Virus record (IMG/VR): IMGVR_UViG_3300010885_079891 | Span: 1 to 28,990 of that record | Strand: one strand, 5' to 3' | From: a virus | DNA length: 28,990 nucleotides | Shown: positions 1 through 28,579 of the stretch, one piece after another | Layout: each line of letters opens with the position of its first letter | Position numbering within the stretch: position 1 is the stretch's first letter | Notes under the pieces: model-generated | What the model saw: the letters and a program-made list of their open reading frames with translations, nothing else | What the model was told of the DNA's origin: nothing | Databases searched by the model: none | Made by a program: the position numbers and the translations under genes

Positions 1-2
1 AA

Positions 3-584
3 ATCGCCACCCAGCGCGGTCTCCTTCACCGCTGCACCATGACCGACGACGGGGTTTCCCGTCCGGCTTGGGCCATCACCGACTCCGCCCGCCGCTCCAT
101 CCAAGTCCGCCGCATGGATGGCCAGCCGTGGGCATGGAACAGCGCGAAGGCTTGGACTCTCGGCGGCAGCATCGCCGGTTGGCCCATAGGTGCCGCCGAC
201 ATCGGCGACCGTCGCCTCGTCCTCTTCTGTGAAGGAGGCCCGGACTTCCTTGCCGCGCACACCCTCGCATGGCTCGCCGACCGCGCCGCCTCGGTCGCCG
301 TCGTCTGCGTCCCCGGAGCCTCCGCCTCGCTTCACCCCGACGCCCTGCCGTTCTTCACCGGCCGCCACGTCCGCATCTTCGAGCACACCGACGACGCCGG
401 TTCCGATGCTGGCCAGCGCTGGGCATCCCAGCTCAAGCAGGCCGGGGCCACCGTGGACGGCTTCGCGCTCAACGCTCCCCACAAGGATCTCGCCGACCTC
501 CTCGCCGCCACCGACGCGGAATCCCTCAACTGCCCATCCGATATTTTCGAGGGCCTACCCAAGGAGGACTCGTCATGCCGGTGA
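3..584 (+). CDS. TOPRIM-domain primase, 5' partial
   Basis: The C-terminal part of a phage or plasmid-type DNA primase; the N-terminal part lies before the window. The frame is open to the window edge, and the residues before the first ATG (position 39) fit the same conserved block, ending in VRRMDGQPW, so that ATG is probably not the start. The TOPRIM signature is visible: a Glu in LVLFCEGGPDF and the acidic pair in HTDDAGSDAG, the usual metal-binding positions. KDLADLLA near the end is typical of primase-helicase C-termini. It overlaps the next gene, whose start lies ten bases before this stop. With that ATPase it probably forms a split primase-helicase for element replication. The family is clear; the exact subfamily is not. 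Confidence 0.85.
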   Translation: MATQRGLLHRCTMTDDGVSRPAWAITDSARRSIQVRRMDGQPWAWNSAKAWTLGGSIAGWPIGAADIGDRRLVLFCEGGPDFLAAHTLAWLADRAASVAVVCVPGASASLHPDALPFFTGRHVRIFEHTDDAGSDAGQRWASQLKQAGATVDGFALNAPHKDLADLLAATDAESLNCPSDIFEGLPKEDSSCR

Positions 585-1672
585 AATCCTACTCCGACAG
601 CCCTGCGCCCGACCCGGCCAGCGCATCACCAACCGCCGTTCCCGTCCCCGGCGAGACCACCGGCACACCCGCCGCCATCCCGTTTCCCGAGAAGCTGGTT
701 GCCCGCGTCGAGTCCACCCGCTTCGACCCGTCCAACCCGCCGCCCGTCGAACCGTGGGCGTTCAAACTCGCCGGGGTAGAGGTCGCGCACTCGGGCAATC
801 TCGTCACCATCGCTGCCGCCGTTAAGTCCGGTAAATCCTCCGTCATCTCCGCGATGATCGCTTCGATGATGGGCGCGGAGGGGCGGGATTACCTCGCCAT
901 CGACGGCAGCAATCCCGACGGCAAGGCCGTCCTCCACTACGACACCGAACAGAGCCGGGGCGACCATTACCACATGATGATGCGCGCGCTTCGCCGCGCC
1001 GATCTGCAAGCGCCGCCAAGGTGGTTTTCCAGCTATTCGCTCACCTTGCTCGACCCGGCCGAACGCCGCGCGGCCATCGGTGCGATGGCTCGTAAAGCCG
1101 CCGCCGCCGGGGGGCTTCACTCGCTCTTCATCGACGGTGTCGCCGACCTCGTGTTCGACGTGAACGACCTGGCCGAGGCCTGCGGTCTCGTCGCCGAGCT
1201 TCACCAGCTCGCCACCGAGACCGGCTGCGTGATCGTCACCGCCCTCCACCACAACCCCGGCGGGGAGAAGACGCGCGGCCACCTCGGCAGCCAGATCGAG
1301 CGCAAATCCGAATCCGTCCTCGTTCTCCGCAAGGACGGGGAGACCATCTCTATCTCCTGCAAACCCGCCCGCCGCCAGGAAGTCAGCGACGACAAGGCTC
1401 CTCGCTTTTCGTGGGATACGGAGGCCGGCATGCACCTGCTCACGCAGTCCAAGGCCACCACCGCCGAAGACCGTAAGCGCATCGAACTCGGCACCCTCGC
1501 CGATGAGGTTTTCGGCGATAAGCCGCGCCTGAAATGGGTCGAATTACGCGATGCCATCATGGCCGCGCGGGGTTGGGCCAAGAGCACCGGGGACAACAAG
1601 ATTGAGGCGATGCTTCAGGTCGGGGTCATAACCAAATGCCCGATGGGGTTTTACGAGAAAGGCCAGCCATGA
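575..1672 (+). CDS. RepA-like P-loop ATPase / helicase (AAA_25 type)
   Basis: A 365-residue ATPase of the RecA-like RepA/primase-partner type, probably the hexameric helicase acting with the preceding TOPRIM protein. The start at 575 is chosen because AAGGAGG lies seven bases upstream and the frame before it only shadows the primase. After a Pro/Ser-rich N-terminus the Walker A region reads AAAVKSGKSS, with Ala where the first Gly normally sits. A Walker B-like LFIDGVADLV follows, then VIVTALHHNPGGEKTRGHLG, the conserved sensor block of this family. The C-terminus looks like a small winged-helix segment. Its stop overlaps the start of the following small ORF in an ATGA arrangement. Confidence 0.85.
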   Translation: MPVKSYSDSPAPDPASASPTAVPVPGETTGTPAAIPFPEKLVARVESTRFDPSNPPPVEPWAFKLAGVEVAHSGNLVTIAAAVKSGKSSVISAMIASMMGAEGRDYLAIDGSNPDGKAVLHYDTEQSRGDHYHMMMRALRRADLQAPPRWFSSYSLTLLDPAERRAAIGAMARKAAAAGGLHSLFIDGVADLVFDVNDLAEACGLVAELHQLATETGCVIVTALHHNPGGEKTRGHLGSQIERKSESVLVLRKDGETISISCKPARRQEVSDDKAPRFSWDTEAGMHLLTQSKATTAEDRKRIELGTLADEVFGDKPRLKWVELRDAIMAARGWAKSTGDNKIEAMLQVGVITKCPMGFYEKGQP

Positions 1673-1830
1673 ACCCCAAACCCCAGATTCACCCCAATTT
1701 GGCCCCAAGTGGGGTTTGCCCAGCTCTGCTACCCCAAACCCCAACGCCCCTATATGTAGGGGCTGGGGTGGTGGGGTTGGGGTCGGAATCCTTTTCCAAC
1801 CCTTATCGGCGAAAGGAGGCGCAGCCATGA
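1669..1830 (+). CDS. Small ORF in C-tract repeats, translationally coupled
   Basis: A 53-codon ORF not resembling any family I know. Its start overlaps the ATPase stop as ATGA, and its stop overlaps the next gene's start as a second ATGA. This double coupling is the main argument that ribosomes read it. The product is rich in Pro, Gly, Leu and Val because the DNA is built of CCCC and GGGG tracts, so the peptide may only be a by-product of a DNA structure. The Shine-Dalgarno for the next gene (AAAGGAGG, about 1,813-1,820) lies inside it. Function unknown. Confidence 0.4.
   Translation: MNPKPQIHPNLAPSGVCPALLPQTPTPLYVGAGVVGLGSESFSNPYRRKEAQP
1674..1782. repeat. CCCC-tract array with G-quadruplex motif and hairpin
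   Basis: At least seven CCCC tracts occur between 1,674 and 1,750, several inside CCCCAAA or ACCCCAA units. They are followed by four GGGG runs at 1759-1762, 1765-1768, 1773-1776 and 1779-1782 with loops of two to four bases, a textbook four-tier G-quadruplex pattern on the plus strand. GCCCCTA (1746-1752) and TAGGGGC (1757-1763) form a stem with loop TATG, extendable with neighbouring tracts. The position directly behind the RepA-like ATPase suggests an origin or iteron-like region. It could also be a transcription-pausing structure. Confidence 0.6.
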
Positions 1831-2462
1831 AAACGCGTCTCTCTACCGCCGATCTCCAGACCGCACGGGATGCCGAATACGCCACCGCCTACCGCGATTG
1901 GCTCGCCACCCTCCCGCCCGAGGAACGCGCCCGCCTCTCCGCCCAAGGTCTCGGCGAACCCGACACCAAGCGCCACACCTCACAGCACGATGACGATACG
2001 GTCATGGAGTTGACCGAGTCGCCCGACATCCAGCCCGACGACCAGGTCGAGGAAGACGACGAACGCGCCTTCGCCGCCAAGCAAGCCGCCCAGTCCGCCA
2101 CCTCCGCCATTCCCACTACCGCCGCCGACTCCTCCCCATCACCAGGGGGCTATCTCGCGGCCGGGGACATCCTCGCCTCGTTCTGTGCCCGCATCCGCGC
2201 TCATCCCAATCCGCTCCTCGCCTTCGACGCCGCCTGTTTCGCCTCCGGCCTCATGGACATCGAGGGCTTGAGCGAGACCGCCCTCGCCAAACGCCACGGC
2301 GTCACCCGCGCCGCGTTCTCCCGCCTAGTCGTTTTATGGTCGCAGACCTTCGCCCTCCCGCCCTCGCGGGGGATGCGTTCAAAACGCGCCCGCCAGTCCT
2401 ATCGCAAGTCCCGCCTCAACCACCTCTCCAAACTCAAATCCACCGCCCACCATGTCCACTGA
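1827..2462 (+). CDS. Hypothetical element protein with HTH-like C-terminus
   Basis: A 211-residue protein of unknown function. The start at 1827 has a good ribosome binding site (AAAGGAGG) and overlaps the previous stop. The N-terminal third is helical and charged (DAEYATAYRDWLATLPPEER), the middle is acidic and low-complexity, and the last 75 residues contain GLSETALAKRHGVTRAAF, which has the spacing of a helix-turn-helix, followed by a very basic tail. This suggests DNA binding, perhaps a regulator or replication accessory factor. Its end overlaps the start of the DUF3102-like gene by 11 bases, so the four genes from the primase onward look like one operon. The HTH assignment is by eye. Confidence 0.7.
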   Translation: MKTRLSTADLQTARDAEYATAYRDWLATLPPEERARLSAQGLGEPDTKRHTSQHDDDTVMELTESPDIQPDDQVEEDDERAFAAKQAAQSATSAIPTTAADSSPSPGGYLAAGDILASFCARIRAHPNPLLAFDAACFASGLMDIEGLSETALAKRHGVTRAAFSRLVVLWSQTFALPPSRGMRSKRARQSYRKSRLNHLSKLKSTAHHVH

Positions 2463-2970: not shown

Positions 2971-3232
2971 CAATGCCTGCGCTCACTCCGTTCGCTTGGC
3001 GCATCGCTCCCGCGCCTTCGCCGCTCCCCCCAACAACACGCCTCGCCGTCCTCCTTCGCCCGCTCCCGTTGGTCGCTACCCTCAACGCCTGCGGTCGCTC
3101 CGCTCCCTTGGCGAACGCCGCTAACGCGCTCCGTCGTCCCGTTCTTGGTAATTCGGTCGCAGACGGTGCCGCTCGGCCTCCCTCCATTCCGCTCCGCGCT
3201 ACCGTTCCGCCTACGGTGCGCCGACTCCGCCC

Positions 3233-3344
3233 AGTCGGGGGCCGCAACGCCCTTCGCCCCTGCCGTCGCGGATCTCGCCGAGCCGAGAACCGCGCCGTCT
3301 CGCTTCGCGAACGGGGCTGCGGTCGTCGCGGCTGATCCCCGACT
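3233..3344. repeat. Long imperfect inverted repeat
   Basis: AGTCGGGG followed by GCCGC (3233-3245) is mirrored by GCGGC, a TGAT bulge and CCCCGACT (3328-3344). Both arm segments are perfect complements, closing a GC-rich interior of about 80 bases. It lies in the apparently non-coding region upstream of the terminase genes. It could be a structured RNA, a protein-binding palindrome or chance in GC-rich DNA. Confidence 0.5.
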
Positions 3345-3893
3345 CGGCGTCGCCGTCGCCCCTTCGGCTCCACGTCCGCCCTCCGCTCCATTCCGGTCGC
3401 CCGACCGTCACCGACTGCTAGACTGTCCGGCTCACAAAGTCTCCCGCCCCATACCAACGCCAGCGCGTCGAGACAGCGTCACTCGATTCCGCGCCCGCCA
3501 AGGCGGGTGCTCACCGAGCGCCGCCGACTCGCCGGGCCACAACGACTCCGGCCCCCGCTCGCAAGGCTCGCTCGGTTCCGCCTCATGCGCCGGGGGCTTT
3601 GATGCTCGGGGCGGAAAAACGCCCCTCGAACAAGGTGTGCGGTTCGTTCGCAAAGCTCACTCACGACTCAACTCGAACGCGCGCCACTAATGCGGAAAGC
3701 CCTCCGCTCGCCACCGGGCAGGTCGCCCGCCCGCATAGCAGGCGATCCGGGTTCACCTCCGTCACGGCGAAGGCGCTGGCACTGCGGCAGCCCCCCGCGC
3801 TCGGGCTGCGTCGTGTCCCGCGTCCATCGTCCGAGTCATGTCGGTGAACCCTTCTCGTCCCGCTCTGCCGTCATGCGACCTGCTTTCCCCTCC

Positions 3894-3998
3894 GCGCACT
3901 ACTTACCTTATGCCCAAGATGCCCTCCTTCGGAGCGAGTCCGGCACCCTGTCAGGGCACCCGCCGGAGGCATTTTTGACATAAGGTGGAGTAGTGCGC
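3894..3998. repeat. 105-bp near-palindrome
   Basis: The left arm (GCGCACTACT, then ACCTTATG, then AAGATGCC) pairs with the right arm in the same order, with only a few mismatches, and the centre contains the tight hairpin CCCTGTCAGGG. The element is bounded by GCGCACTACT and AGTAGTGCGC. This is much longer than a normal terminator and has no T-run. It could be a MITE-like insertion, a structured RNA or a packaging or replication site. Confidence 0.65.
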
Positions 3999-4553
3999 TC
4001 GGGCCGGCGGCGAGCTTCGGGCGTCACCAGTCCGCGCGCGCGAACCAATTCCACTGCGGCTTCGCCGCGCCTCAACGAAGATTCTAGCGGCGCTTCGCGC
4101 AATGGATAGGTTCCCCCGCGCCCGCCCTGGCCGTCCGTTGTCGAAGCATTGTCCCCGATGCCACCTCGCTCACAAGCCATCGTCGGTTCTGCCGTCGCCA
4201 CGCGCCCCCATCGTTCTCTCGCTTCGCTCGTTCACTGGGGAGCTTCCCCCCGCCACCCAAGCAGGGCGGTGGCCCCGCCCGTCCCTGTCGGCCTAGCTTC
4301 GCTGGCCGACCGGCGGGCTTGCGCGCCTCTGGCGCGCCGCTTCGCCCTGTCACCCGCGCGCTCCGCGCAGAATCAGCGGGCGACGGGCTCCGCCTCCGTC
4401 GGGCCGGGCGCGCCGAGCCGCGCGTCGGCCCTCCTGCGCCTCGGCGGCGGCAAGAATGCCGCCCACTCGTTGCGGCGGGCTAACGCCCGCCGCTGCAACC
4501 TGCACCGTTCACGCGCGTTTTAAGCCATCGCCAAATCCGCCCCCGCGCGTGCG

Positions 4554-4575
4554 TTGACACCCCGCAACGGCGATG
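4554..4575 (+). promoter_or_regulatory. TTGACAC-N12-ATG motif, copy 1 (small terminase)
   Basis: TTGACACCCCGC followed by a CGGC-containing spacer and ATG. The 12-base core is identical to that at 8132, and the distance to the start codon is the same. TTGACA is too close to the start to be an ordinary -35 box for this ORF, so a translational or late-gene control role is possible. Function is inferred. Confidence 0.5.
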
Positions 4576-9140: not shown

Positions 9141-9178
9141 ACCCGCCCCGCATCACCCACTTTTAACGCCCTCTTCCC

Positions 9179-10596: not shown

Positions 10597-10791
10597 ATGC
10601 TCTCCACAATCCTCTCCGTCCTCCGAGACCCCGTGCCCTACCGGGGCGGTCTCGGCATCTTCGCCATCGTCACCCTCGAACGCCTCAACGCCTTCGTCGG
10701 ACTCCTGGTCGGCATCGCCACCCTCGTTTACCTCTGCCTTCGCATACGCCGCGAATACCTCAACCGCCACCGCCCGCCGTCCGGCGAATAA
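10597..10791 (+). CDS. Small membrane protein, holin-like
   Basis: A 64-residue protein with two hydrophobic stretches: GLGIFAIVTLERLNAFVGLL and VGIATLVYLCLRIRR, the second followed by a basic cytoplasmic-looking end (RREYLNRHR). Size, membrane segments and place after the head genes fit a holin or a small inner-membrane protein of phage elements. No endolysin gene is visible near it, so a lysis role is only one option. The start at 10,597 is preceded by CACC with no clear Shine-Dalgarno, as for most genes here. It lies between two terminators. Confidence 0.6.
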   Translation: MLSTILSVLRDPVPYRGGLGIFAIVTLERLNAFVGLLVGIATLVYLCLRIRREYLNRHRPPSGE

Positions 10792-10807: not shown

Positions 10808-10830
10808 TTGACACCCACCCGCTGCGTATG
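10808..10830 (+). promoter_or_regulatory. TTGACAC-N13-ATG motif, copy 4
   Basis: TTGACACCC followed by ACCCGCTGCGT and ATG. The first nine bases match copies 1 and 3, and the spacing to the start codon is one base longer. Here the TGA is not the stop codon of a recognised gene, so stop-codon usage alone does not explain the motif. Confidence 0.45.
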
Positions 10831-11022
10831 AACGCAAAAACCATTCGCATCCTGTCCTTCCTCGGTAAGACCGCCGGTCTTGTCCTCACCGTCGCCGGCC
10901 CCTTCTCCGGCACGCCCATCGGCCTCACGGTCTTCGCCGTTTCGTCCTTCCTCAAAGACGCCGTGAACCGCTTCGGCGACATCGCCGACGACGGCAAACC
11001 CAACAATTCCTTCAAAACCTAA
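10828..11022 (+). CDS. Small hydrophobic protein of unknown function
   Basis: A 64-residue protein with a hydrophobic core: ILSFLGKTAGLVLTVAGPF and GLTVFAVSSFLKDAVNRFGD, enough for one or two membrane helices. The C-terminus is polar. I do not recognise the family. It follows the holin-like gene by 36 bases and ends before a strong hairpin terminator, so the two small membrane proteins may act together, for example as a two-component holin or a superinfection-exclusion pair. This is inference from position and hydrophobicity only. Confidence 0.5.
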   Translation: MNAKTIRILSFLGKTAGLVLTVAGPFSGTPIGLTVFAVSSFLKDAVNRFGDIADDGKPNNSFKT

Positions 11023-11048: not shown

Positions 11049-11080
11049 AGCCCCGACCCATTAAATGGCCGGGGCTTTTT
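11049..11080 (+). terminator. Rho-independent terminator ending phage module
   Basis: AGCCCCG and CGGGGCT close a stem around CCATT-A-AATGG, followed by TTTTT. It separates the phage module from the defence cluster. Confidence 0.9.
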
Positions 11081-11118
11081 CTTGGCTATTATGCGCCCGA
11101 CTGCATTTGTTTTACACA

Positions 11119-14672: not shown

Positions 14673-14680
14673 GCCTCTCC

Positions 14681-17926: not shown

Positions 17927-17929
17927 TTA

Positions 17930-17940
17930 ACCCTAAGGGT
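17930..17940. promoter_or_regulatory. Palindrome upstream of toxin gene, candidate operator
   Basis: ACCCTAAGGGT, a perfect palindrome around a central A, lies in the 42-base gap before the toxin start, followed by an AT-rich TAAATAG. HigA-type antitoxins usually bind such palindromes over their own promoter, so it is a candidate autoregulatory operator. Confidence 0.5.
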
Positions 17941-17968
17941 AAATAGTTCTTGCTACCACCCGACCCAC

Positions 17969-18304
17969 ATGGAAATCTCTTACTCCAACAAGAAACTCGC
18001 CAAGCTGCTCAACAGCCAAAAGGAGGTCTTGAGGACTTACGGGCACGATAACGGTAACCGCATCCTTGCGCGACTTACCCAGATCGCCGCCGCCGAGACC
18101 CTCGCCGACCTCGCCAAGCTGCCTCAGACCCGAGTCCATGAACACACCAACAACAACGACGAACAAATCTCGGTGGATGTGAAACATCCCTACCGGCTGA
18201 TGCTGGCCGCCGATCATCCTAAGACCCCGCGCAAACCCGACGGCGGGCTCGATTGGGCCAAGATCACCCGAGTAAGTATCCTGAGAATAGACGACCCCCA
18301 CTGA
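17969..18304 (+). CDS. higB: HigB-like toxin (RelE/ParE superfamily)
   Basis: A 111-residue protein of the HigB-like family in the RelE/ParE fold, usually ribosome-dependent mRNA interferases. Typical segments are visible: MEISYSNKKLAKLLNSQKEV at the start, GNRILARLTQIAAAETLADL, and the closing strand SVDVKHPYRLMLAADHP, which is diagnostic for this group. Such genes are sometimes misnamed killer suppression protein. The gene precedes its antitoxin, the inverted order typical of HigBA, with two bases between them. It is embedded in the defence cluster, so it may stabilise the island or act as an abortive-infection effector. Confidence 0.85.
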   Translation: MEISYSNKKLAKLLNSQKEVLRTYGHDNGNRILARLTQIAAAETLADLAKLPQTRVHEHTNNNDEQISVDVKHPYRLMLAADHPKTPRKPDGGLDWAKITRVSILRIDDPH

Positions 18305-18306
18305 CC

Positions 18307-19404
18307 ATGAGCACCAAACCCACCTACAAGCCCGACTTCGCCATCCACCCGGGCGAGACCCTGCTCGAAACACTCGACGCCCTCGGCATGACCCAGAAGG
18401 AACTCGCCGAACGCACCGGCCGCCCCCTCAAGACCATCAACGAGATCGTCCAAGGTAAGGCCGCCATCATCGCCGACACCGCCCTGCAGCTTGAGCGCGT
18501 CCTCGGCGTGCCCGCCACCTTCTGGAACAACGCCCAGCGCAACTACGAGGCCCAGCTCGCGCGCAACGCCGAGACCGAGGCCCTGCAACGCGACGTAGCC
18601 TGGTTGCAGGACTTCCCTCTGGCCCAGCTTCGCAAGCTCGGCTGGATTCCCAAGCTGTCCGATCCGGTCGAGCAGCTTCGCGCCGTCCTCGGCTTCTTCG
18701 GCGTCGCTGGAGTGGAGGAGTGGCGGCAGCTCTGGCAGCAGCCCGATGTCGCCTTTCGCAAATCCCGCGCCTTCGATGCCCGCCCCCAATCCGTCGCCGC
18801 CTGGCTCCGTGCCGGCGAACGCGAGGCCCAGCAGGTCGCCACCCAGCCCTTCGATAAGGAGAAGTTCACCGCCGCGCTCCACGAGATCCGTCGCCACACC
18901 ACTACCGGGCCCGAAACCTTCGAGCCCCTTATGAAGCGCCTTTGCGCCGAGGCAGGGGTCGCCTTGGTCTTCGTTCCCGAGGTCACGGGCACCCGCGCCT
19001 TTGGCGCTACCCGCTGGCTCACCCCGGAAAAGGCGATTCTTCAACTCAGCCTTCGCGGCAAGACCGACAATTTTCTTTGGTTCACCTTCTTCCACGAGGC
19101 CGCCCACATCCTCAAGCACGGCAAGCGCGATGTCTTTATCGAGTCGAGCGAGGGAACCGCTGATGCCGATACCCAGCGCAAGGAAGCCGAGGCGAACGCC
19201 TTCGCCGCCGATTTTCTAATCCCGCGCCCGGCCTACCGCGAACTCCTCACGCTCAAGCCGTTCACGATAGCCAAGGTCGAGCACTTTGCAGGACAACACG
19301 GTATCGCCCCCGGCATCGTTGTCGGCAGATTGCAGCACGATAAAATCATCCCCTTCACTCACCACAACGGCCTTAAGCGCCGCTTCCAATTCAATACTAA
19401 TTAA
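18307..19404 (+). CDS. higA: HigA-type HTH antitoxin fused to ImmA/IrrE peptidase
   Basis: A 365-residue fusion. Residues about 15-75 form a HigA-type helix-turn-helix (LDALGMTQKELAERTGRPL, TINEIVQGKAAI, LERVLGVPATFWNN). After a helical linker, the C-terminal half is an ImmA/IrrE-like zinc peptidase with HEAAHILKH (His263, Glu264, His267) and the downstream EAEANAFAADFLIP carrying the likely third ligand. Start 18,307 is two bases after the toxin stop; upstream in-frame sequence only shadows the toxin. ImmA proteins cleave partner repressors, so this antitoxin may be conditionally inactivated, or control its neighbours. Eight bases separate it from the methyltransferase gene. Fusions of this type are known; the proteolytic target is unknown. 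Confidence 0.88.
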   Translation: MSTKPTYKPDFAIHPGETLLETLDALGMTQKELAERTGRPLKTINEIVQGKAAIIADTALQLERVLGVPATFWNNAQRNYEAQLARNAETEALQRDVAWLQDFPLAQLRKLGWIPKLSDPVEQLRAVLGFFGVAGVEEWRQLWQQPDVAFRKSRAFDARPQSVAAWLRAGEREAQQVATQPFDKEKFTAALHEIRRHTTTGPETFEPLMKRLCAEAGVALVFVPEVTGTRAFGATRWLTPEKAILQLSLRGKTDNFLWFTFFHEAAHILKHGKRDVFIESSEGTADADTQRKEAEANAFAADFLIPRPAYRELLTLKPFTIAKVEHFAGQHGIAPGIVVGRLQHDKIIPFTHHNGLKRRFQFNTN

Positions 19405-19412
19405 AATCCCTC

Positions 19413-21299
19413 ATGGCTAAAATTGATGTCACCAAAACCGAGCTGGTCTGGCCCGGAAAATATAATGAGGATGGATCGCTGCGCGAGGTGCCTCGCGTAA
19501 ACCTTCCTTTTCAAGTCATTGAGCGGGTGAATGAAAGCCGCGCGACACGCGAAGCTCAAAAAAACGCTAATCTAACTCTGTTCGATTTTTATTCCGGCAA
19601 GGAAGGGGTAACATTTGAAGATGGATGGAGAAATAAGCTCATATGGGGCGACAACATTCTTGTAATGAGTTCCTTGCTAGAGAAATTTGCCGGTAAGGTT
19701 GATCTAATATATATCGACCCACCTTTTGCTACCGGCGCCGATTTTTCATTCAAAACGAGCATTGGGGACGGAGAGGATGAGATCCATAAAGAACAGAGTA
19801 TTATTGAGGAAAAGGCATATCGCGACACTTGGGGTAAAGGCCCCGGGAGCTTCATGCAGATGATTTACGACCGAATCAGTCTAATCAAAATGCTGATGAG
19901 CCCCACGGCCTCCCTGTATGTTCATTGTGATTGGCGTATGTCAGGTGTGATAAGATTAATTCTCGATGAAATCATGTCAGGAAACCATGTGAATGAAATT
20001 ATATGGTGCTATAGTATTGGGGGTAAAGGCACGGATCGTTTTGGACGGAAACATGATACTATCTTTTTATATTCAAAGGGCGAAGACCGCGTATTCAATG
20101 CTAAAGACCCACACGTTCTAATGCCCCGGAAACCCAACAGCCACATGAGGGCAAAGGTCGATGCCGATGGTAGAGAGTATCAAGAAAAGACAGATAAAAA
20201 GTCAGGGAAAGTCTATAGGTATTACGTAGATCAGGGGGCGATTCCCACAGATTACTGGACTGATATCGAGCAGTTAAATTGGGAAGCCGCTGAAAGGGTA
20301 GGATACGATACTCAAAAACCCGAGCGTTTACTAAGTAGAGTAATTGCCGCTTCCACAAATGAAGGGGGCTTGGTTTGTGATTTTTTCTGTGGATCGGGGA
20401 CAACGCTTGCAGTTGCAGAAAAGCTTGGGCGACGATGGATTGGTTGTGATTTAGGAAGATGGGCGATTCATACCACACGTAAACGCCTGCTTGAAATCGA
20501 AGGATGTAAACCCTTCGAGGTTCTCAATCTTGGGAAATACGAACGTCAATATTGGCAGGGATCCACACTGGGAAGTGGTCAAAGCAACGGGCAACTTCTC
20601 TATGAATATCTAGCATTTGTCCTGAAACTATATCAGTCACAGCCTCTTTCCGGCATGTCTCATATACATGGCAAAAAAGGCGCGGCGATGGTGCATATTG
20701 GTGCCATTGACTCCCCTGTTACAATTGATGAGGTTTCACTAGCCATAGAAGAATGCGTTAAAACCAAGCAGCCGGAGCTTCACGTTCTGGGATGGGAGTG
20801 GGAGATGGGATTAGCTGGCCCCAATAATGGCGTAAAGAAGGGGAGCCCCATGCACGATGTTGCTAAGCAAAAGGGCATCAAACTACTGCTGCTCCAGATT
20901 CCCCGCGAGGTCATGGAAAAACAAGCGGTTGATAAAGGTCACCTCACTTTCTTCGAACTCGCTTACCTCAACGTGGAAATCAATCAGGCTAAGAACCTCC
21001 ACGTCTCAATTACATTGAAAGACTTTGTAATCCCCAACACCGAACTCATCCCCGAAGAGGTGCGCGAAAAAGTGAAGAAGTGGAGTGACTATATCGACTA
21101 CTGGGCGGTGGATTGGGACTTTCAGAACGACAGTTTTATGCAGGGCTGGGTTACCTACCGCACTCGCAAAGATCGCTCCCTCGCCCTCGCCAGCGACGTT
21201 CATAAATACGAAAAGCCCGGCACTTACCGTGTCCTCGTCAAAGTGGTGGACATCTTTGGTAACGATACCTCTCAAGCCTATACCATCGAGGTAAAGTAA
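19413..21299 (+). CDS. mod: Type III-like adenine methyltransferase (Mod)
   Basis: A 628-residue beta-class N6-adenine methyltransferase. The catalytic motif IV, IDPPF (residues 102-105), precedes the SAM-binding motif DFFCGSGTT (323-331), the order of type III Mod proteins; the target-recognition region should lie between and after them. The C-terminal third (from about 480) includes KDFVIPNTELIPEEVREKVK and a closing beta-rich YRVLVKVVDIFGNDTSQAY. It would modify host DNA and, with the following gene, recognise the target site. Bases about 19,550-20,880 are clearly AT-richer than both flanks, suggesting recombinational replacement of the catalytic and recognition core. Both motifs are intact, so it is probably active. 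Confidence 0.9.
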   Translation: MAKIDVTKTELVWPGKYNEDGSLREVPRVNLPFQVIERVNESRATREAQKNANLTLFDFYSGKEGVTFEDGWRNKLIWGDNILVMSSLLEKFAGKVDLIYIDPPFATGADFSFKTSIGDGEDEIHKEQSIIEEKAYRDTWGKGPGSFMQMIYDRISLIKMLMSPTASLYVHCDWRMSGVIRLILDEIMSGNHVNEIIWCYSIGGKGTDRFGRKHDTIFLYSKGEDRVFNAKDPHVLMPRKPNSHMRAKVDADGREYQEKTDKKSGKVYRYYVDQGAIPTDYWTDIEQLNWEAAERVGYDTQKPERLLSRVIAASTNEGGLVCDFFCGSGTTLAVAEKLGRRWIGCDLGRWAIHTTRKRLLEIEGCKPFEVLNLGKYERQYWQGSTLGSGQSNGQLLYEYLAFVLKLYQSQPLSGMSHIHGKKGAAMVHIGAIDSPVTIDEVSLAIEECVKTKQPELHVLGWEWEMGLAGPNNGVKKGSPMHDVAKQKGIKLLLLQIPREVMEKQAVDKGHLTFFELAYLNVEINQAKNLHVSITLKDFVIPNTELIPEEVREKVKKWSDYIDYWAVDWDFQNDSFMQGWVTYRTRKDRSLALASDVHKYEKPGTYRVLVKVVDIFGNDTSQAYTIEVK

Positions 21300-21317
21300 C
21301 CACTCCCGCTCCTCGCT

Positions 21318-24239
21318 ATGCCCGCCCTTCCCGTTGTCCAGTATGATCAGGAACTGCCGGAAATCCCCAGCCGTTGCGCATGGGAGGTTCCGACTTACCA
21401 CCTCATAAAAACGCCCAAAGCGAAGGGGGGCTGGGCCATCGCGCCAGGCCGTCGCCCAAGTAAACTGCTGTTGATCGAAAAGCTCCGCGCCGCCGTCACC
21501 GCTTGGCGCAATCAGGGCTATCCCGGCGTCTCCGCCGTTTCTCGTCGCCTATTGCAGTATTGGTTTGAGGAAGACCATCAGGTCGCGGGTTTCCCCGTGC
21601 CATTCCGCTACCACTTCGGCCAGCGCGAAGCGGTAGAGACACTGATCTACGTCGTTGAGGTTTGCGGCCACCGGGATGCCATCCCCGCCATCCAGCAATT
21701 CGGCTCGGTTTACGGCACCGGCCTTTTTGAAGGCCAGGGCTACTCATTCCAGACGCTCACCGACGGCACCCGGCAGATACGCCGCTACGTGGCCGAGACC
21801 GATAGCGAGCAGACCCAAGACCTTTCGGCCAAGGATCTGCGTCGCCATGCCTTCAAGATGGCCACGGGCTCAGGCAAGACCTGGGTCATGGCCCTGAGCA
21901 TGGTTTGGTGCTACTACCGCCAACGCGAAGGCACAAGCGGGGTCGCCTCCGATCTCGGGCTCTCCACCAACTTCCTGATCGTTTCCCCTAACGTCATCGT
22001 TCACCAGCGCCTCGAACGCGATTTCGACGGCAACAAAATCTTCAATCAAATTCCCCTCGTTCCGCCCGAGTGGGGCAAGATGAACCTCAAAGTCATCAAG
22101 CGTGGCGACTTCACCGAGCCCGATGCGGGCGGAAACCTGTTCATCACCAATATCCATCAGCTCTACGAGGGCCGCGACCAGCCAGCCACTCCCTCCAACG
22201 CCATCGAAGCACTGCTCGGCACACCGGTCAAAAAAGACGGCGTCAACAAAGGCCGCTCCATGTTGGAGCGCATCAAATCCCTCAAAAACGTCGTCGTCCT
22301 CAACGACGAGGCCCACCACGTCCACGACAGCGACCTGGAGTGGCACCGCAGCCTCATGGCCATCCACAAGGCCCACTCCAAAGGCTTGGCCTTGTGGCTG
22401 GACTACTCCGCCACGCCCCAGCAGGGCGACTTGTTCTTCCCGTGGATCATCGTGGACTATCCCTTGGCTCAAGCGGTCGAGGATCGCATCGTCAAAGCCC
22501 CGGTCATCGTCCGGCAAACCAGCAAATCCAAAGCCCCGCCCCAAGATCCAGTCGGGGTAAACAAAGACAACGTCTGCGACAAATACGGCTACTGGATCCA
22601 GTCCGCCGTCGCCCGTTGGAAAGTGCATTGCGAGGCATACAAGCCGGTGAAGCTCAACCCCGTGCTCTTCATCATGGTCGAGCGCGCCAACTACGCTGAC
22701 GCCATCGGCCAGCACCTGATCGACACGCATGATTTCAAGGAAGAGCAAGTTCTCGTCATCCACACCGATACCTCCGGTGAAATCACCGCTGGCGACCTCG
22801 AAAAAGCCCGCATCGCCGCCAACGAGATCGACAAGCCCAACAACAAAATCCGGGCCATCGTCAGCGTGATGATCCTAAAGGAGGGCTGGGACGTCCGCAA
22901 CGTGACCGTCGTTCTCGGTCTTCGCCCCTTCGGCACCGCCATCCTTCCCCAGCAGGTAATCGGCCGCGGCCTCCGCCTCATGGATCGCACCGCCATCGGC
23001 CCCGACCGCACCCAGACTCTGGAAGTGCTCGGCACGCAAAACCTCCTCCAAACCCTCAAAGATAACCTGGAGAGCGAAGGCGTCGGCGTTGGCGACACCG
23101 GCACTCCGCCTGCGCCACCGATCACCATTGCGCCCACCAAAGAGCGTGCGGCCTACGACATTTGGATTCCCCTCACCAAGCCCTCGTTGATCCACAACAT
23201 CCAAAAACTCGCCGACGTGGATGTGCTCAAGATCGACAGCATCTTGGAAGACGCCGACCTCTCCGAAGTTTACCGCATCGAGCTGAAAATGGATTTTGGC
23301 ATCACCCAAACCCATGTCAGCATGGCGGTGGTTAACTTGGGCGCCAAACCCATCCACGAGACGCTCGCCTACCTCACCAACCGTGTCGCCGACATGGCCA
23401 AGCTCGGCGGCCGTTTCGCCGAACTTTACCCCTTGGTGAAAACCTACGTGGAGCACCGCTGCTTCGGTCGCACCGTATCGATAGATGCGGAGACCGACGA
23501 AGGTAAAAAAGTCGCCGAATACCTCACCCGCCAAGACATCCGGGAGGCCGTGGCCAAACGCCTCGCCCACCGCCTCGCCACCCTACTAGTGGACAAGCGT
23601 GCGCTGGAGTTCGAAAAGGCGAACTTCAAGCTAAGCGAAACCAAGCCCTTCACCTGGCGCCGCAACCTCAGCGCGGGCCCGCTCATCTGCAAAAAGACCG
23701 TCTTCAACTACGTCGCCACCTACAACGACTTTGAACGCCGCTTCGGGATTTTTCTCGATACGGCCAAAGACGTGAAGCGTTTCGCCGCGCTCGGCACCAC
23801 CGAACAAGGCGACTGCAACACCGCCTTCCGCGTGGACTACCTCAAACCCACCGGAGCAATCGGCTTCTATTACCCCGACTGGGTGGCGGTGCAGAAGACC
23901 GACGAAGGCGAAACCAATTGGATCATCGAGACCAAAGGTCGCGTCTTCGACACGGATCAAGTCAAAGCCAAGGACGATGCGATCACCGACTGGTGCGAAC
24001 GCATTGGCAAAGAAACCAACACCTCCTGGGCATACATTCGCATCAACCAATCCACGTTTGAAGGCAATGCGTGTGTCTATTTCTCGGAGCTGGTTCACAT
24101 CACCCAAGGCGGCTTGCTGGCCGCCTCATCCGACGCCGCAACGCCTGCCCCTCCTACTGCGGCTCCTCCCGCCAAAACCCCGCCAATCCCTCCGCCGGAT
24201 TTAGGCATACACACCGAGGACGAGATCCCTCTCGTCTAG
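21318..24239 (+). CDS. res: Type III restriction subunit (Res)
   Basis: A 973-residue SF2 ATPase-nuclease partner of Mod. Helicase motifs are present: Walker A MATGSGKTW (about 180-188), DEAH box NDEAHHVHD (Asp330), motif III DYSAT, and motif VI QQVIGRGLRL (about 543-552). The C-terminal nuclease shows YPDWVAV and IIETKGRVF (about 850-875), the PD-(D/E)XK core of Res proteins. The last 30 residues are Pro/Ala-rich. It starts 18 bases after mod, so the two are co-transcribed. Together they should cut DNA with unmodified inversely oriented sites. All key motifs look intact. A stem-loop lies at the stop codon. Confidence 0.92.
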   Translation: MPALPVVQYDQELPEIPSRCAWEVPTYHLIKTPKAKGGWAIAPGRRPSKLLLIEKLRAAVTAWRNQGYPGVSAVSRRLLQYWFEEDHQVAGFPVPFRYHFGQREAVETLIYVVEVCGHRDAIPAIQQFGSVYGTGLFEGQGYSFQTLTDGTRQIRRYVAETDSEQTQDLSAKDLRRHAFKMATGSGKTWVMALSMVWCYYRQREGTSGVASDLGLSTNFLIVSPNVIVHQRLERDFDGNKIFNQIPLVPPEWGKMNLKVIKRGDFTEPDAGGNLFITNIHQLYEGRDQPATPSNAIEALLGTPVKKDGVNKGRSMLERIKSLKNVVVLNDEAHHVHDSDLEWHRSLMAIHKAHSKGLALWLDYSATPQQGDLFFPWIIVDYPLAQAVEDRIVKAPVIVRQTSKSKAPPQDPVGVNKDNVCDKYGYWIQSAVARWKVHCEAYKPVKLNPVLFIMVERANYADAIGQHLIDTHDFKEEQVLVIHTDTSGEITAGDLEKARIAANEIDKPNNKIRAIVSVMILKEGWDVRNVTVVLGLRPFGTAILPQQVIGRGLRLMDRTAIGPDRTQTLEVLGTQNLLQTLKDNLESEGVGVGDTGTPPAPPITIAPTKERAAYDIWIPLTKPSLIHNIQKLADVDVLKIDSILEDADLSEVYRIELKMDFGITQTHVSMAVVNLGAKPIHETLAYLTNRVADMAKLGGRFAELYPLVKTYVEHRCFGRTVSIDAETDEGKKVAEYLTRQDIREAVAKRLAHRLATLLVDKRALEFEKANFKLSETKPFTWRRNLSAGPLICKKTVFNYVATYNDFERRFGIFLDTAKDVKRFAALGTTEQGDCNTAFRVDYLKPTGAIGFYYPDWVAVQKTDEGETNWIIETKGRVFDTDQVKAKDDAITDWCERIGKETNTSWAYIRINQSTFEGNACVYFSELVHITQGGLLAASSDAATPAPPTAAPPAKTPPIPPPDLGIHTEDEIPLV

Positions 24240-24271
24240 GGCTGCCGCCCCCTCGGCTCGTCCGGCAGCCC
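24239..24271 (+). terminator. Stem-loop at Res stop codon
   Basis: GGGCTGCCG and CGGCAGCCC pair over nine bases with a 15-base loop, starting at the last base of the stop codon. There is no T-run, so it may be an attenuator or mRNA-stabilising hairpin rather than a full terminator. Confidence 0.5.
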
Positions 24272-24318
24272 CAAAGTCCAAGACGCCATCCCGATCTGCC
24301 AGTCAAAGCGGCACAACT

Positions 24319-24777
24319 GTGCCCTCGATTAGCCAAATCGATCCGGACGCACTGCCCGGCGTCATCCGGCAGCTTTTCAGCGACGGCCAATCCCGCGACC
24401 GCGAAACAGCCCTTCGCGACCTGGCCGACGCACTGGGCTTCAAACGCCTCGGGCCGCTGATCAAGGAAACCCTCGCATCCAGCCTCCTCTCTGCCGCGCG
24501 CCGAGGTATCCTCAAAAACGAAGCGGGTGAACTCTCGTTGCTTTACCGAAGCATCGAGGACTACGACCGCAATTCCCTTAAATCTCAGTTCCTCGCTTCA
24601 CTAGGCCGCACTTGGACAGAGCGCGACGATGCCGCGCGCGCCTTCGCCCGATGGCTCGGTTTCACTCGCACCGGCCCCGCCATTCAAGAAACGGTGCGCT
24701 CCCTCATCAACGGCCTTATTCGAGAACGCCGACTCGAATCCGATTCAACCCAAATCCGTCGCGCCCCAAAAGGGTGA
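24319..24777 (+). CDS. Small protein with internally duplicated domain
   Basis: A 152-residue protein starting with GTG. The frame is open back to a stop at 24,202 but has no ATG, GTG or TTG before 24,319. Two copies of a motif lie 74 residues apart: LADALGFKRLGPLIKET (35-51) and FARWLGFTRTGPAIQET (109-125), each followed by a helix ending in Arg. The unit (LGF-x-R-x-GP-x-I) resembles small winged-helix modules I recall from the C-termini of large defence helicases and DUF3320-type proteins. A DNA-binding or adaptor role for Res or the next helicase is plausible. It sits 79 bases after res and 39 before the helicase gene. Function not known. Confidence 0.65.
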   Translation: MPSISQIDPDALPGVIRQLFSDGQSRDRETALRDLADALGFKRLGPLIKETLASSLLSAARRGILKNEAGELSLLYRSIEDYDRNSLKSQFLASLGRTWTERDDAARAFARWLGFTRTGPAIQETVRSLINGLIRERRLESDSTQIRRAPKG

Positions 24778-24816
24778 TAAGTTGGTCGAACCTGTTTAAT
24801 TTCCACTCATCTGCCA

Positions 24817-26778
24817 ATGCCCATTAACATCGTAGGAACCCCGGCTGGCGACGAGCGCGATGCTGCGGAGGCATTGTCACAAATACTCACCCCGCGTCTT
24901 CGAAAAGAGGATCGAATCACGATTGTGGTCGGCGCCCAATGCTTTGGGCAGAAGCGCAAGGACATCGACCTGATTCTTTTCGGCTCAATGGCCAAGGGTT
25001 TTATACTTAAGCCAGGCGAGAAGCCGGATGGTTTTGAAAAAAAGAACATATATCTAAATACATTCTGCATGGTAGTGGAACTAAAGAACCACCCCTCAAA
25101 TCGAGTGCGAATCCAAGGCACAAATGTGGACGTAGAGTATAAAGGAAAGTGGTCGAGTGCTACTGCGCAGGCGGACGAGCAGACTTATTCCGTTAGAGAT
25201 TACATCACCCGCCAGAATCTACACGCTCCTTTCATTCTAAACGCAGTTTGGCTTCGCAATCACCCGCGCCCTTCGGGCACTGGCTCAACCAATAATATAT
25301 TCTGGAGCGATCTTAACGCCACCGCGTTGATCAGGCTCTTGGCCGAGCTTCGACATGCGGATCTAGTTGAGCAGGCTCGCGAGAGACTCGACCTGAGCAT
25401 ATCCTGCTCTCGCCGCGATGATTTTGATCAAGTAGCCCAAGCATCCGAAATCTTCACCCGCTCGTTAGCCACAAGCCCGTTGGATCGTTCCAAAATGGAA
25501 CTGATCTGTAAACGCATTATCGACGGTCAGACTTATGCCACCGAAAAACTTGGCAAACAGATGCTGCTTTTCCGTGGCCAAGGTGGTTCAGGTAAAACGG
25601 TTCGTCTCCTTCAACTTGCAAAAAACCTATACGACGACCAGGGCACCCGAATACTCTTCCTGACATTTAACCGATCCCTAGTCGCGGATGTTCGGAGGCT
25701 ACTTGTCTTGATGCGGATCAGTGACAAACCGGATGATCGAACCATCGAAATCCGAACCTGTGATTCTTACTTTTTCAAGCTGCTCGACGCATTGGGTCTT
25801 CATACAGCTTCAGATCATGGAGCCCCCTTTCCGGCTGACTACGCGGCGAAAAAGCTAGATGCCCTCCAGCTCATTTCATCTATGAGCAGGGAAGAACTTT
25901 TACGGGACACCTTAGCGACAAATAACCCAGAACTTTTCTCTTGGGATTTCGTGATGATCGACGAGGCGCAGGACTGGCCCGATATTGATAAAAACCTTCT
26001 GTTTAAACTATTCGGGCACAACCTTCTGTTCGTCGCCGATGGTGTTGATCAGTTTGTCAGGGAAAACACGCGGTGCGACTGGACGAGCGGATTGGGAGTT
26101 ACCGAACGTCAGATCGTCCCACTTAGAAAATGCCTGCGCTTAAAAGCCAATTTATGTCGGTTCATCTCCGCGTTTGCCGATGAGATGAGCATCCCATGGA
26201 ATTTATCTGTTAACGACGACGTGCCTGGAGGCCGGGTTATCATAGTAAAAGGTGCCTACACTCAGGACATCCACGCTGAGGTGATGAAAACTCACCAAGC
26301 CAATCGCAATGAGCCAGTGGACAGCCTTTTCTGCGTCACGGCCTCACCTCAATTCGCCGGTAATTCGCTCGCGCAGAGGCTCGAATCGTGGGGCGAAAAA
26401 ACATGGGACGGCACAAACAAAGAGGTTCGCGACACCTACCCCACGGATACGAAGCAAATTCGAATTGTCCGGTATGAGTCCTGTCGTGGATTAGAGGGCT
26501 GGTCGGTTGTCTGCCTCGATGCGGAGCGTTTTTTTGGCCGTCAAGTAGAGCACGCGCCGCAGATCAAGCAGGGGGATTTGTTAATCTCAGAAAAAGAGGC
26601 GGCAAGCCATCACGCGGCGCGTTGGTTGATGATCGCGTTTACTCGCGCCATTGATACGCTGGTCATACAAGTCTCTGAAAGAAGCCAATTCACCGATCAG
26701 CTCCTCAAAATAGCCAAAGAGCACAAAGATTTCATCGAGGTGCTGGAGCCCACCCAACCCTCTGGTTCTATAGCCTGA
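24817..26778 (+). CDS. NERD-like nuclease fused to SF1 helicase
   Basis: A 653-residue nuclease-helicase. The N-terminal 110 residues contain a NERD/PD-(D/E)XK-like core: KDIDLILFG (Asp49, Asp51) and VVELKN (Glu88, Lys90). The SF1 helicase has Walker A GQGGSGKT (254-261), LFLTFNRSLVADVRRL, Walker B DEAQDW (382-387), LRKCLRLKANLCRF as a motif IV-like block, ESCRGLEGWSVVCLD as motif V and WLMIAFTRAIDTLVI as motif VI. Such proteins are common in defence islands and probably process invading DNA. It is the last gene of the same-strand defence run, 39 bases after the duplicated small protein. Its GC looks lower than the phage genes, suggesting separate acquisition. Confidence 0.85.
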   Translation: MPINIVGTPAGDERDAAEALSQILTPRLRKEDRITIVVGAQCFGQKRKDIDLILFGSMAKGFILKPGEKPDGFEKKNIYLNTFCMVVELKNHPSNRVRIQGTNVDVEYKGKWSSATAQADEQTYSVRDYITRQNLHAPFILNAVWLRNHPRPSGTGSTNNIFWSDLNATALIRLLAELRHADLVEQARERLDLSISCSRRDDFDQVAQASEIFTRSLATSPLDRSKMELICKRIIDGQTYATEKLGKQMLLFRGQGGSGKTVRLLQLAKNLYDDQGTRILFLTFNRSLVADVRRLLVLMRISDKPDDRTIEIRTCDSYFFKLLDALGLHTASDHGAPFPADYAAKKLDALQLISSMSREELLRDTLATNNPELFSWDFVMIDEAQDWPDIDKNLLFKLFGHNLLFVADGVDQFVRENTRCDWTSGLGVTERQIVPLRKCLRLKANLCRFISAFADEMSIPWNLSVNDDVPGGRVIIVKGAYTQDIHAEVMKTHQANRNEPVDSLFCVTASPQFAGNSLAQRLESWGEKTWDGTNKEVRDTYPTDTKQIRIVRYESCRGLEGWSVVCLDAERFFGRQVEHAPQIKQGDLLISEKEAASHHAARWLMIAFTRAIDTLVIQVSERSQFTDQLLKIAKEHKDFIEVLEPTQPSGSIA

Positions 26779-27093
26779 TGCTCGCCGTAGGCTCGAATTC
26801 TTCGTGCGTGGCCGTGCCCAGAGGGTGCCCTTAGGGTAGCACCTGCGACGGCTGGCGGGCTCCGCGCTGCGCACTCCGCCCGTCCACGCCTCTAGGTATT
26901 GCTCGCTGGCGGGCGCTGGCGGCTACGCCGTCCCGCGTCCCGTCCCGCTGCGCTCCACCTTGCGCAGCCGGTGCTTCCCGTCGGCATCCCTCGGGGGCGG
27001 CCGTTTTTTCGGTTTGGCCATCTGAGGGCTCCGCGTAGCGCGGCCCGCTACTCCCATCCGCGCCCTCGTTGGGGCGCACTCCTCCGACATCCC
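26779..27093 (+). other. 315-bp intergenic region after defence cluster
   Basis: No confident gene. GGTGC (26824-26828) and GCACC (26839-26843) form a weak hairpin soon after the helicase stop. The rest is GC-rich with GGC-type palindromes. A minus-strand ORF of 32 codons (27021 down to 26923) starts MAKPKK and is strongly basic; I cannot tell whether it is real. Upstream in-frame extension of the following gene reads Arg/Pro-rich sequence and is not believed. Confidence 0.5.
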
Positions 27094-27543
27094 ATGCGTG
27101 ACTCATTCCGTGATCCTACACCTCAGCCCGGCGACCAGATCCACCAGCCCGGCCACCCGTTTGACGGTTTCACCGTCATCAGCGTTTACACCCGCGCCCA
27201 GGCCATCGCCGACGGCGTCCTTGCCGACGCCTCCACCGGCGACCTCGCCGAGGTCTCCGCCCAGCACTTCCCCAGCGTTCACGTCGCCATGACGGCGGCG
27301 GTCTTCGCCCTCATCGAGCAGGCGGTCGCGAGTCCGAAGCACGCGAACGACTGCCGCGGCGTCTGGCATGACATCCTCTGGATGTCCCGCGTTTCTCCCG
27401 TGCAGGTCTGGCAGGGTGGGCGCCTCTTCCGCGTCATCATCACTGGCACCGGCCGCAAGCGCCTGCACACCTTGAAGGCCATTTCCCACCCCGACGAGAC
27501 CGGCCGCCCCTGTCTCACGATCATGCTCCCCGACGAGGATTGA
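27094..27543 (+). CDS. DUF6573 family protein
   Basis: A 149-residue protein of the DUF6573 family, common on plasmids and integrative elements and without known function. Diagnostic segments are DGFTVISVYTRAQAIADGVL (about 24-43), FPSVHVAMTAAVFALI, WHDILWMSR and the end LTIMLPDED. The start at 27,094 is chosen because the family motif begins soon after it and the upstream extension is low-complexity. It ends 14 bases before a terminator stem and converges on the broken minus-strand gene. It is probably accessory to the mobile element rather than part of the defence operon. Confidence 0.85.
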   Translation: MRDSFRDPTPQPGDQIHQPGHPFDGFTVISVYTRAQAIADGVLADASTGDLAEVSAQHFPSVHVAMTAAVFALIEQAVASPKHANDCRGVWHDILWMSRVSPVQVWQGGRLFRVIITGTGRKRLHTLKAISHPDETGRPCLTIMLPDED

Positions 27544-27557
27544 TCGACGCCAGCCAG

Positions 27558-27587: not shown

Positions 27588-27592
27588 CGTGC

Positions 27593-28354: not shown

Positions 28355-28416
28355 ACTAAGAAGAGACCGGAAGCGGTCGGGCTTGTCACTCCTTCACCCT
28401 GAAATCCGCCCCGTTT

Positions 28417-28438
28417 AGGTTGCCCAAAGGTTGCCAAA
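28417..28438. repeat. Tandem direct repeat AGGTTGCC-type
   Basis: AGGTTGCCCAA (28417-28427) is directly followed by AGGTTGCCAAA (28428-28438), ten of eleven positions identical. It lies about 115 bases inside the element end, a typical distance for integrase or excisionase arm-type sites. That role is inferred. Confidence 0.5.
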
Positions 28439-28510
28439 TCTTCTGTTTTTAGCTTCCCTTCGCTGCATTTACCTGCTCTTATAAGCACGTTCTAAACCAC
28501 TAACATTCAA

Positions 28511-28537
28511 CTAAGTCCGCGTTATTTAGGGACTTAG
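28511..28537. repeat. 8-bp inverted repeat near the element end
   Basis: CTAAGTCC (28511-28518) and GGACTTAG (28530-28537) are perfect complements separated by 11 bases, in an AT-richer stretch directly before the tRNA fragment. It may be a recombinase-associated site or a transcript end. The spacer is not typical of a terminator and there is no T-run. Confidence 0.45.
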
Positions 28538-28553
28538 CCAGTAACGGCGAATC

Positions 28554-28579
28554 GGGTTCGAATCCCCCCCTCTCCGCCA
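28554..28579 (+). other. tRNA-Ser 3'-end fragment, candidate attachment site
   Basis: The T-loop TTCGAAT (28557-28563), the acceptor 3' strand CCTCTCC, discriminator G and encoded CCA (28577-28579) are those of a tRNA-Ser. Upstream there is no D-arm, anticodon arm or matching GGAGAGG, so the rest of the tRNA is absent. The outer T-stem bases (28552-28553) do not pair, consistent with a hybrid junction in which the crossover lies at or left of 28,554. This is the expected look of an attachment site distal to the integrase. Confidence 0.8.

Follow-up and report, generated by a model that had tools for sequence, protein, structure and literature searches.

Capsid-forming phage-inducible chromosomal islands (cf-PICIs) are phage satellites which, in the accessible portion of one account, encode terminase, portal, protease, capsid, head-tail adapter, closure and HNH genes without tail genes, and whose capsids (those compared belonging to PF05065) cluster apart from phage capsids, the heads being proposed to join helper tails (PMC13230959). 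They average 14 kb (P4 satellites 10 kb, phage-inducible chromosomal islands (PICIs) 9.5 kb) and are listed, in the excerpt available, primarily from Enterobacteriaceae, Lactobacilli, Enterococci and others (PMC10803314); a review, in its accessible part, remarks that genomes exceeding those of their helpers would be possible for them, but do not occur (PMC11389934). Here we describe a family of integrated elements starting from one member, carried on a stretch of viral DNA of 28,990 bp which we call the window (IMG/VR record IMGVR_UViG_3300010885_079891, a single record, cut on its left side and with no host genome attached). We read this family as integrative capsid-forming phage satellites of Verrucomicrobiota that would replicate and package themselves and take their tails from helper phages, and give this reading a probability of roughly 0.7.

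Gene families were named by profile searches (Pfam, PHROG and PADLOC) and tRNA genes by ARAGORN; all named genes of the window are on the + strand (Table 1). An earlier note, made from the sequence of the window, had assigned a replication ATPase, both terminase subunits, portal, protease, decoration and capsid genes, and all of these were borne out by profile matches. In the same profile searches no tail or connector family was recognised in the window, in line with the note, and the roughly 15-kb defence region that it had described after the capsid gene was found to consist mostly of defence-type genes (11065-26778, 15.7 kb; of 8 cargo proteins scanned with PADLOC 7 were matched, with that of RadC weak at E 0.0014). 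The primase that it had placed at 3-584 was not upheld, as this gene, cut by the window edge, gave no Pfam or PHROG match and was recognised solely as a conserved gene of the element family. The claim that lysis genes are absent stood in that no endolysin family appeared, but is insecure in that two small hydrophobic proteins (10597-10791 and 10828-11022) are conserved after the capsid gene, with a possible holin or other membrane function; the first is also present in three contigs of a second lineage (57-63% identity over 35-37 amino acids).

The window element is one of a family in Opitutaceae-related Verrucomicrobiota, and not a lone decayed prophage. With the portal as query, 19 loci came from viral contigs (L020 among them at just 27% identity) and 7 from genomes; two of the latter are in the complete genome of Verrucomicrobia bacterium IMCC26134 (CP011265.1), which we take to be a cultured strain; both copies there have uninterrupted head genes, and the note's guess of a verrucomicrobial host was correct. 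Within IMCC26134's family, 38 of 252 genomes had a match to the capsid protein (E<=0.001), the best match being at least 80% identical in 11 of the 38 (3 of these partial, one of them with a stop) and more distant in the rest, while a class-level search matched 9 of 384 genomes at E<=1e-40, three at 80% identity or above, all three already found. Seven copies of the capsid gene occur in a single genome, G225: five are close, and two, Mu-like, are at about 50% identity. A contig from another genome (L021, CAMCZZ010000007.1) is titled as an Akkermansia muciniphila metagenome-assembled genome, a species label that is doubtful because its genome, G012, is placed in the same family as IMCC26134.

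The left end is present in ten elements (IMCC_A, IMCC_B, V39, G225_1 to G225_5, ME09 and G059), in all of which an intact tRNA-Ser or tRNA-Glu gene lies directly before the integrase gene. Eight of the ten have a copy of the tRNA 3' end at the far end, matching exactly over 22 nt in six and imperfectly in IMCC_A and G225_2; the contig of ME09 stops before the element does, and the right end of G059 was not found by the attachment site (att) pattern, another element following there. The tRNA-Ser end described for the window held for the tRNA 3' end at 28554-28579, the right attachment site (attR), but not for a tRNA gene, which ARAGORN did not find there and which in the relatives lies intact at the opposite end. 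The five G225 copies occupy five different tRNA genes, and the integrase tree divides by target (3 Glu, 7 Ser and 3 unassigned rows; Shimodaira-Hasegawa-like approximate likelihood ratio test 99), as expected of working enzymes. Searching viral contigs with the att-arm pattern yielded one already known contig and no excised circles or further right ends. The eight two-ended elements measure 37.2, 37.1, 37.4, 29.3, 40.3, 39.4, 40.0 and 38.1 kb, so that 7 of 8 span 37.1-40.3 kb, and the whole window element is estimated at ~33.7 kb if its missing left part resembles that of its ME09 relative. Constant genome length as a proof of headful packaging was dropped, given the element of 29.3 kb, the estimate for the window and arms that do not compensate one another (r = -0.05).

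Tandem arrangements were seen twice. Behind the head-only element of G059 (L098-L100, composite 40008-56588) lies a second element with a related integrase; the possibility that it carries tail genes was rejected, since by eye its genes resemble a conjugative type IV secretion system, and it was read as a tandem integrative and conjugative element (ICE). The same type of integrase and the same site may serve both satellites and ICEs. In G225 (contig C1, ~1,190,000-1,230,000; L081, L212, L213) a sixth copy of the family stands in tandem behind copy 2.

For the tail genes, 186 proteins encoded after the capsid gene were gathered from 15 tailed relatives, and profiles of the 18 families present in at least three relatives were run against six-frame translations (E<=0.01). 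None of the 18 families was matched in 23 head-only elements, some of them partial, whereas all 9 tailed controls were matched, 65 times in total (G225_7 and G121_2 among the controls are near-copies of training members), and searches with single post-capsid proteins gave one match, to a 48-amino-acid frame (E 8.5e-4), taken as chance. The tailed relative G225_6, annotated with PHROGs, has proteins of the MuA and MuB types; its capsid gene is directly followed by that of a head-tail adaptor, and it also encodes major tail, tape measure and tail assembly proteins, being probably of siphovirus type given its major tail protein; the other tailed relatives were recognised through homology and gene order. 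The elements thus appear to be without a recognisable connector or tail gene, that is, without the genes for an infectious particle alone.

Two findings that the note had foreseen as telling against a satellite were looked for. Tail genes to the left of the window were not recognisable in the left parts of the relatives, which hold integrase, small helix-turn-helix (HTH) protein, recombination and replication genes. The left arm of IMCC26134 element B encodes an integrase (phrog_1 E 1.8e-23), an HTH protein, Sak4-like/AAA_24, DUF669, helicase, primase/polymerase-type, exonuclease, RusA and DUF3102 proteins, the HTH protein and exonuclease being named from V39 homologues. A PHROG scan covered 23 proteins from element B, excluding the head genes and TerS and with SspH truncated at the locus boundary; these matched 33 PHROGs, and among the 25 of these examined there was no tail, connector, lysis or transposition (MuA/MuB) family. 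As to the second, defence genes simply replacing the tail of an otherwise complete prophage, the tail module of the tailed relatives does occupy the same position, but every such relative examined is a transposing, Mu-like phage, whereas the elements integrate at tRNA genes through tyrosine integrases.

Purifying selection acts on the head genes. All six are free of internal stops at 90% coverage or more in 12 of 18 elements compared; of the others, G225_2 and G225_5 have a stop inside the TerL alignment, yet retain an uninterrupted TerL frame of 466 amino acids, the protease frame of V30 is split, and in Ki3, G231 and G133 head genes are cut by contig ends. Ratios of non-synonymous to synonymous substitution rates (dN/dS) over 7 pairs were 0.02-0.18 for TerS, 0.07-0.20 for TerL, 0.06-0.37 for the portal, 0.06-0.25 for the protease, 0.07-0.27 for the capsid and 0.23-0.54 for the decoration protein. 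A capsid tree of 57 rows placed 28 head-only rows in one group (98/97), together with one unassigned 3.9-kb fragment, and the other 28 rows outside it, with the element capsids apart from those of Mu-like tailed phages; among the outside fragments some carry default labels, and several head-only rows come from elements seen in part, as fragments. The head order is unchanged in a second, more distant head-only lineage (TerL 65-68% and capsid 66-72% identical), where the small transmembrane gene comes after the head genes in five contigs and then an integrase in three of these. In one 33.9-kb contig of this lineage (L180-L181) the TerL and portal matches are each broken into separate segments, and long insertions lie between head genes.

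The contents of the slot between the capsid gene and attR differ among copies. In IMCC26134, element B holds SspB, C, D, F, G and H with SspA/DndA, and element A a PbeA/DrmD-like helicase with HmaC; V39 holds a type I restriction-modification (RM) system, G225_3 a type I restriction subunit and G225_5 a type III RM system with other helicases. Twenty proteins, a part of the relatives' cargo, were scanned, of which 19 were matched at E<=1e-10. Much cargo is common to G225_2 and G225_4, and cargo of G225_3 is common with V30. The G+C content of the cargo is below that of the backbone in 8 of 8 complete copies, and no slot gene above 500 amino acids is common to more than 4 of 17 elements, save for a domain-level link of the V39 restriction helicase to the left-arm helicase. 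The window's own slot includes a small gene without an assigned family between the type III restriction subunit and the NERD/UvrD helicase, and its DUF6573 gene has 97% identity with that of IMCC26134 element B.

The family-wide tail-less state, the constrained head genes and the capsid clade support the capsid-forming satellite that the note had proposed. Judged from their genes, the elements may spread by borrowing the tails of other phages. Upon infection by, or induction of, a tailed phage, an element would excise and replicate and would package its ~29-40 kb into its own head; the helper would supply head-tail adaptor, tail and probably lysis, and the chimeric particle would deliver the defence cargo to a new cell. 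Candidate helpers are Mu-like tailed phages with related heads: G225, with its five elements, has two closely similar ones (shared span ~34-36 kb), one right beside the attR of copy 4, and G012 has one. A search of IMCC26134 confined to Mu-like phages detected no helper, and as Terminase_6 genes are there only in its two elements, any helper would be an infecting phage or one of another type. A search of 8 genomes for PhageMin_Tail (PF10145) gave 0 matches and was discarded, as it missed the tailed phages of G225 as well.

Several points weigh against the satellite reading. The tandem sixth copy of G225 has kept its integrase, replication genes and RNA domain and lost its head genes. The tail-assembly family phrog_778 was matched in only 2 of 8 head-only host genomes (G225 and G012), weak evidence given that phages of G146 and G614 (L170) were missed too, and the confinement of Terminase_6 genes in IMCC26134 to the elements comes from a search in which that was the one terminase family covered. 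An exclusive head-only capsid clade was present in just 7% of bootstrap trees, because the fragment L136/L211 of G366 falls inside; on this 3,852-bp contig (C134) the capsid gene is followed by other genes without known family, and L211 could be a tailed or intermediate member. Without an adaptor of their own, attachment of a helper tail would depend on the portal alone, and particle formation, excision and transfer are predictions from the genes. Lastly, at 37-40 kb most elements are not smaller than the candidate helpers (~34-36 kb), unlike described satellites. For the further proposal of a separate, phage-sized satellite kind, with captured Mu-type heads, self-replication and self-packaging, portal docking without an own adaptor, an exchangeable defence bay of ~15 kb in the space left by tail loss and a large structured RNA beside the terminase genes, we regard the odds as even.

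Among other explanations, the best surviving, though unlikely, is an inert prophage lineage, its tail genes lost when defence cargo inserted, that is retained for the defence genes it carries. This would account for the cargo sitting exactly where the tailed Mu-like relatives have their tail module, and the headless sixth copy and the split protease frame of V30 agree with it. The uninterrupted head genes of 12 of 18 elements and their low dN/dS run counter to it, and to the decayed prophage that the note had held as its main alternative; the tail-less state is moreover common to at least two lineages, the five copies at five tRNA genes of G225 and the target-specific integrases suggest continued mobility, and the cargo turns over while the head genes stay. 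Heads that function tailless or with a host-encoded delivery device, by another uptake route or in a gene-transfer-agent-like use, are less probable still. The tail-assembly family unmatched in IMCC26134 and five other host genomes (the search also missed the tailed phage of G146) and the absence from all 23 elements of any head-tail adaptor family of the tailed relatives would fit, but the elements retain the portal and terminase of a normal tailed-phage head, G225 and G012 carry Mu-like tailed phages, and we know of no precedent for infectious tailless particles of this head type. Complete phages with tail genes too divergent to recognise, or placed elsewhere in the host genome as a split genome, are suggested by the conserved left-arm genes c9, c12, c15 and c57 without Pfam match, the poor fold model of c12 (predicted local distance difference test 64; 0 PDB matches at E<=0.001) and the examination of element B's PHROG matches to 25 of 33, and are similarly improbable, as these core genes are found with the early genes, toward the integrase, and not after the capsid gene, no large slot gene is widely shared and no post-capsid family of tailed relatives was found.

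Table 1. Coordinates of features in the window (element counts are out of 17 elements compared, partial ones included)
Feature	Start	End	Strand	Basis or remark
C-terminal part of conserved early gene, cut by window edge	3	584	+	88% identical to gene of ME09 relative (339 amino acids there)
RepA/DnaB-like P-loop ATPase	575	1672	+	AAA_25 E 1.2e-9; phrog_243 DnaB-like helicase E 9e-9
Conserved core gene c9	1827	2462	+	In 13/17 elements; no Pfam match
DUF3102 protein	2452	2970	+	Pfam E 3.8e-6; in 12/17 elements
Conserved non-coding region, DUF3102 gene to terS	2971	4572	+	DNA identity with relatives
Covarying secondary-structure domain	3462	3683	+ (as listed; transcribed strand not established)	98.0% of cells paired
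TerS, terminase small subunit	4573	5100	+	phrog_4044 E 3.2e-19
TerL, terminase large subunit	5034	6494	+	Terminase_6N E 1e-19; Terminase_6C E 4e-5; true start may be ~60 bp later, near terS end
Mu-type portal with Mu-F-like C-terminal domain	6510	8135	+	Portal_Mu E 2e-64; Phage_Mu_F E 1.3e-5 (below curated cut-off)
Head maturation protease, Mu I-like	8151	9140	+	Mu-like_Pro E 5.7e-15; phrog_328
Decoration/scaffold (cement) protein	9179	9574	+	phrog_673 E 5.5e-12; Phage_cement E 0.005 (below cut-off)
Major capsid protein	9621	10523	+	phrog_1005 E 3.3e-38
64-amino-acid protein c6 with one transmembrane segment	10597	10791	+	In 14/17 elements; Kyte-Doolittle maximum 2.24
Second 64-amino-acid hydrophobic protein	10828	11022	+	13 similar sequences in family; Pfam match at chance level, E 0.22
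RadC/JAB protein	11065	11811	+	RadC E 2.8e-30
UvrD helicase with PD-(D/E)XK nuclease, GajB-like	11811	14672	+	Profile and PADLOC matches
Sacsin/NO VEIN-type protein, TmtA-like	14681	17926	+	SACS E 1.4e-15; TmtA E 4.7e-69
Small protein, toxin-antitoxin toxin family	17969	18304	+	phrog_3066 E 8.6e-8
HTH with M78 peptidase, PD-Lambda-2_B-like	18307	19404	+	Profile and PADLOC, scanned from 18253
Type III DNA methyltransferase	19413	21299	+	E 3.6e-137
Type III restriction (ResIII) subunit	21318	24239	+	ResIII E 6.2e-12; REase_III E 3.5e-14
NERD and UvrD-type helicase	24817	26778	+	C3a187 E 4.4e-11
DUF6573 gene beside attR	27094	27543	+	Pfam E 1.1e-13 for 26899-27540; cluster c19 in 6 elements
Conserved arm beside att core, 'TAAGTCCGYG...ACTTAG' type	28512	28537	+	Similar motif before attR in IMCC_B, V30, G225_2, G225_4 and G225_5
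attR, copy of tRNA-Ser 3' end	28554	28579	+	Repeat comparison with relatives

The non-coding region upstream of terS (2971-4572) is 86-95% identical in DNA to 8 relatives and ~65% to 4 G225 copies, and in most of the 8 it is more conserved than the neighbouring c9 protein. It has no conserved open frame, each of the six frames having at least two stops in all 13 sequences and frames breaking between copies. Within it lies a domain of 222 nt (3462-3683) in which 98.0% of pair cells are kept over 13 distinct sequences versus 92.9% in shuffles, and 9 of 43 pairs are changed on both sides versus 4.4 in shuffles (0/500 as high), figures favoured by the structure having been derived from the same alignment that was used for testing; the number of pair types was equalled by 8/500 shuffles, and sliding the partners destroys the signal. 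Across 57 sources, searching with the RNA model recovered the domain from additional copies (L213, L198 and L085/L086) and not from second-lineage or tailed loci, the diverged G042 copy or the partial L017, while an Rfam search of the window gave no match in the region and one sub-threshold match outside it. DNA of the region matches 45 of 252 genomes (E<=0.001), mostly over short stretches, with the match in G116 adjoining genes unlike those of the family, and parts of it may be dispersed repeats. The domain is a candidate new structured RNA; its role might be guessed as that of a late-operon leader or of an RNA connected with packaging.

Satellites of the P4-like and PICI kinds also carry defence genes, and these and the phage-inducible chromosomal minimalist islands (PICMIs) are without a capsid of their own. 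The present family resembles all three as chromosomal elements that are, in its case presumably, helper-dependent, and PICMIs carry anti-viral defence genes in the part of the source available (PMC10803314). Like the Mulch and Flayer satellite phages of Streptomyces, its members encode encapsidation machinery; Mulch and Flayer, as described in the accessible text, are without key replication genes (PMC10690885), which our elements have, being without tail genes instead. With Mu-like tailed phages (G225_6, G225_7, G146 and others) they share the head order and homologous TerL, protease, decoration and capsid proteins (capsid ~29-57% identical), but those phages carry MuA/MuB-type transposition genes (named in G225_6) and a post-capsid adaptor and tail module, whereas the elements integrate at tRNA genes. 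In the literature searched, from which subscription papers and preprints were largely outside, there was no report of such elements in Verrucomicrobiota, nor a study devoted to phage satellites there. As in cf-PICIs, so far as the accessible excerpts describe them, the elements have their own capsid and packaging genes, no tail, and capsids apart from phage capsids. The window capsid has no match to PF05065 at E<=0.01, matching phrog_1005 instead; no HNH family was among the Pfam matches or the 25 of 33 PHROGs examined for element B; and no adaptor or closure gene of the cf-PICI type came to light among the post-capsid families in 23 elements, the families tested being those of Mu-like phages and not of cf-PICIs. 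The family further differs from the cf-PICIs of those excerpts in its Mu-type head, Terminase_6, occurrence in Verrucomicrobiota, large replication module and defence slot of at least 15 kb in most copies, and in being two to three times larger (mostly 37-40 kb, 29.3-40.3 kb in the 8 complete elements). The family points to a way in which complete defence systems, Ssp and type I and III RM among them, could be carried directly from one bacterium to another inside virus heads, and, where own-capsid satellites are described in those excerpts as small islands, the family here has another capsid type and a size at or above that of its tailed relatives.

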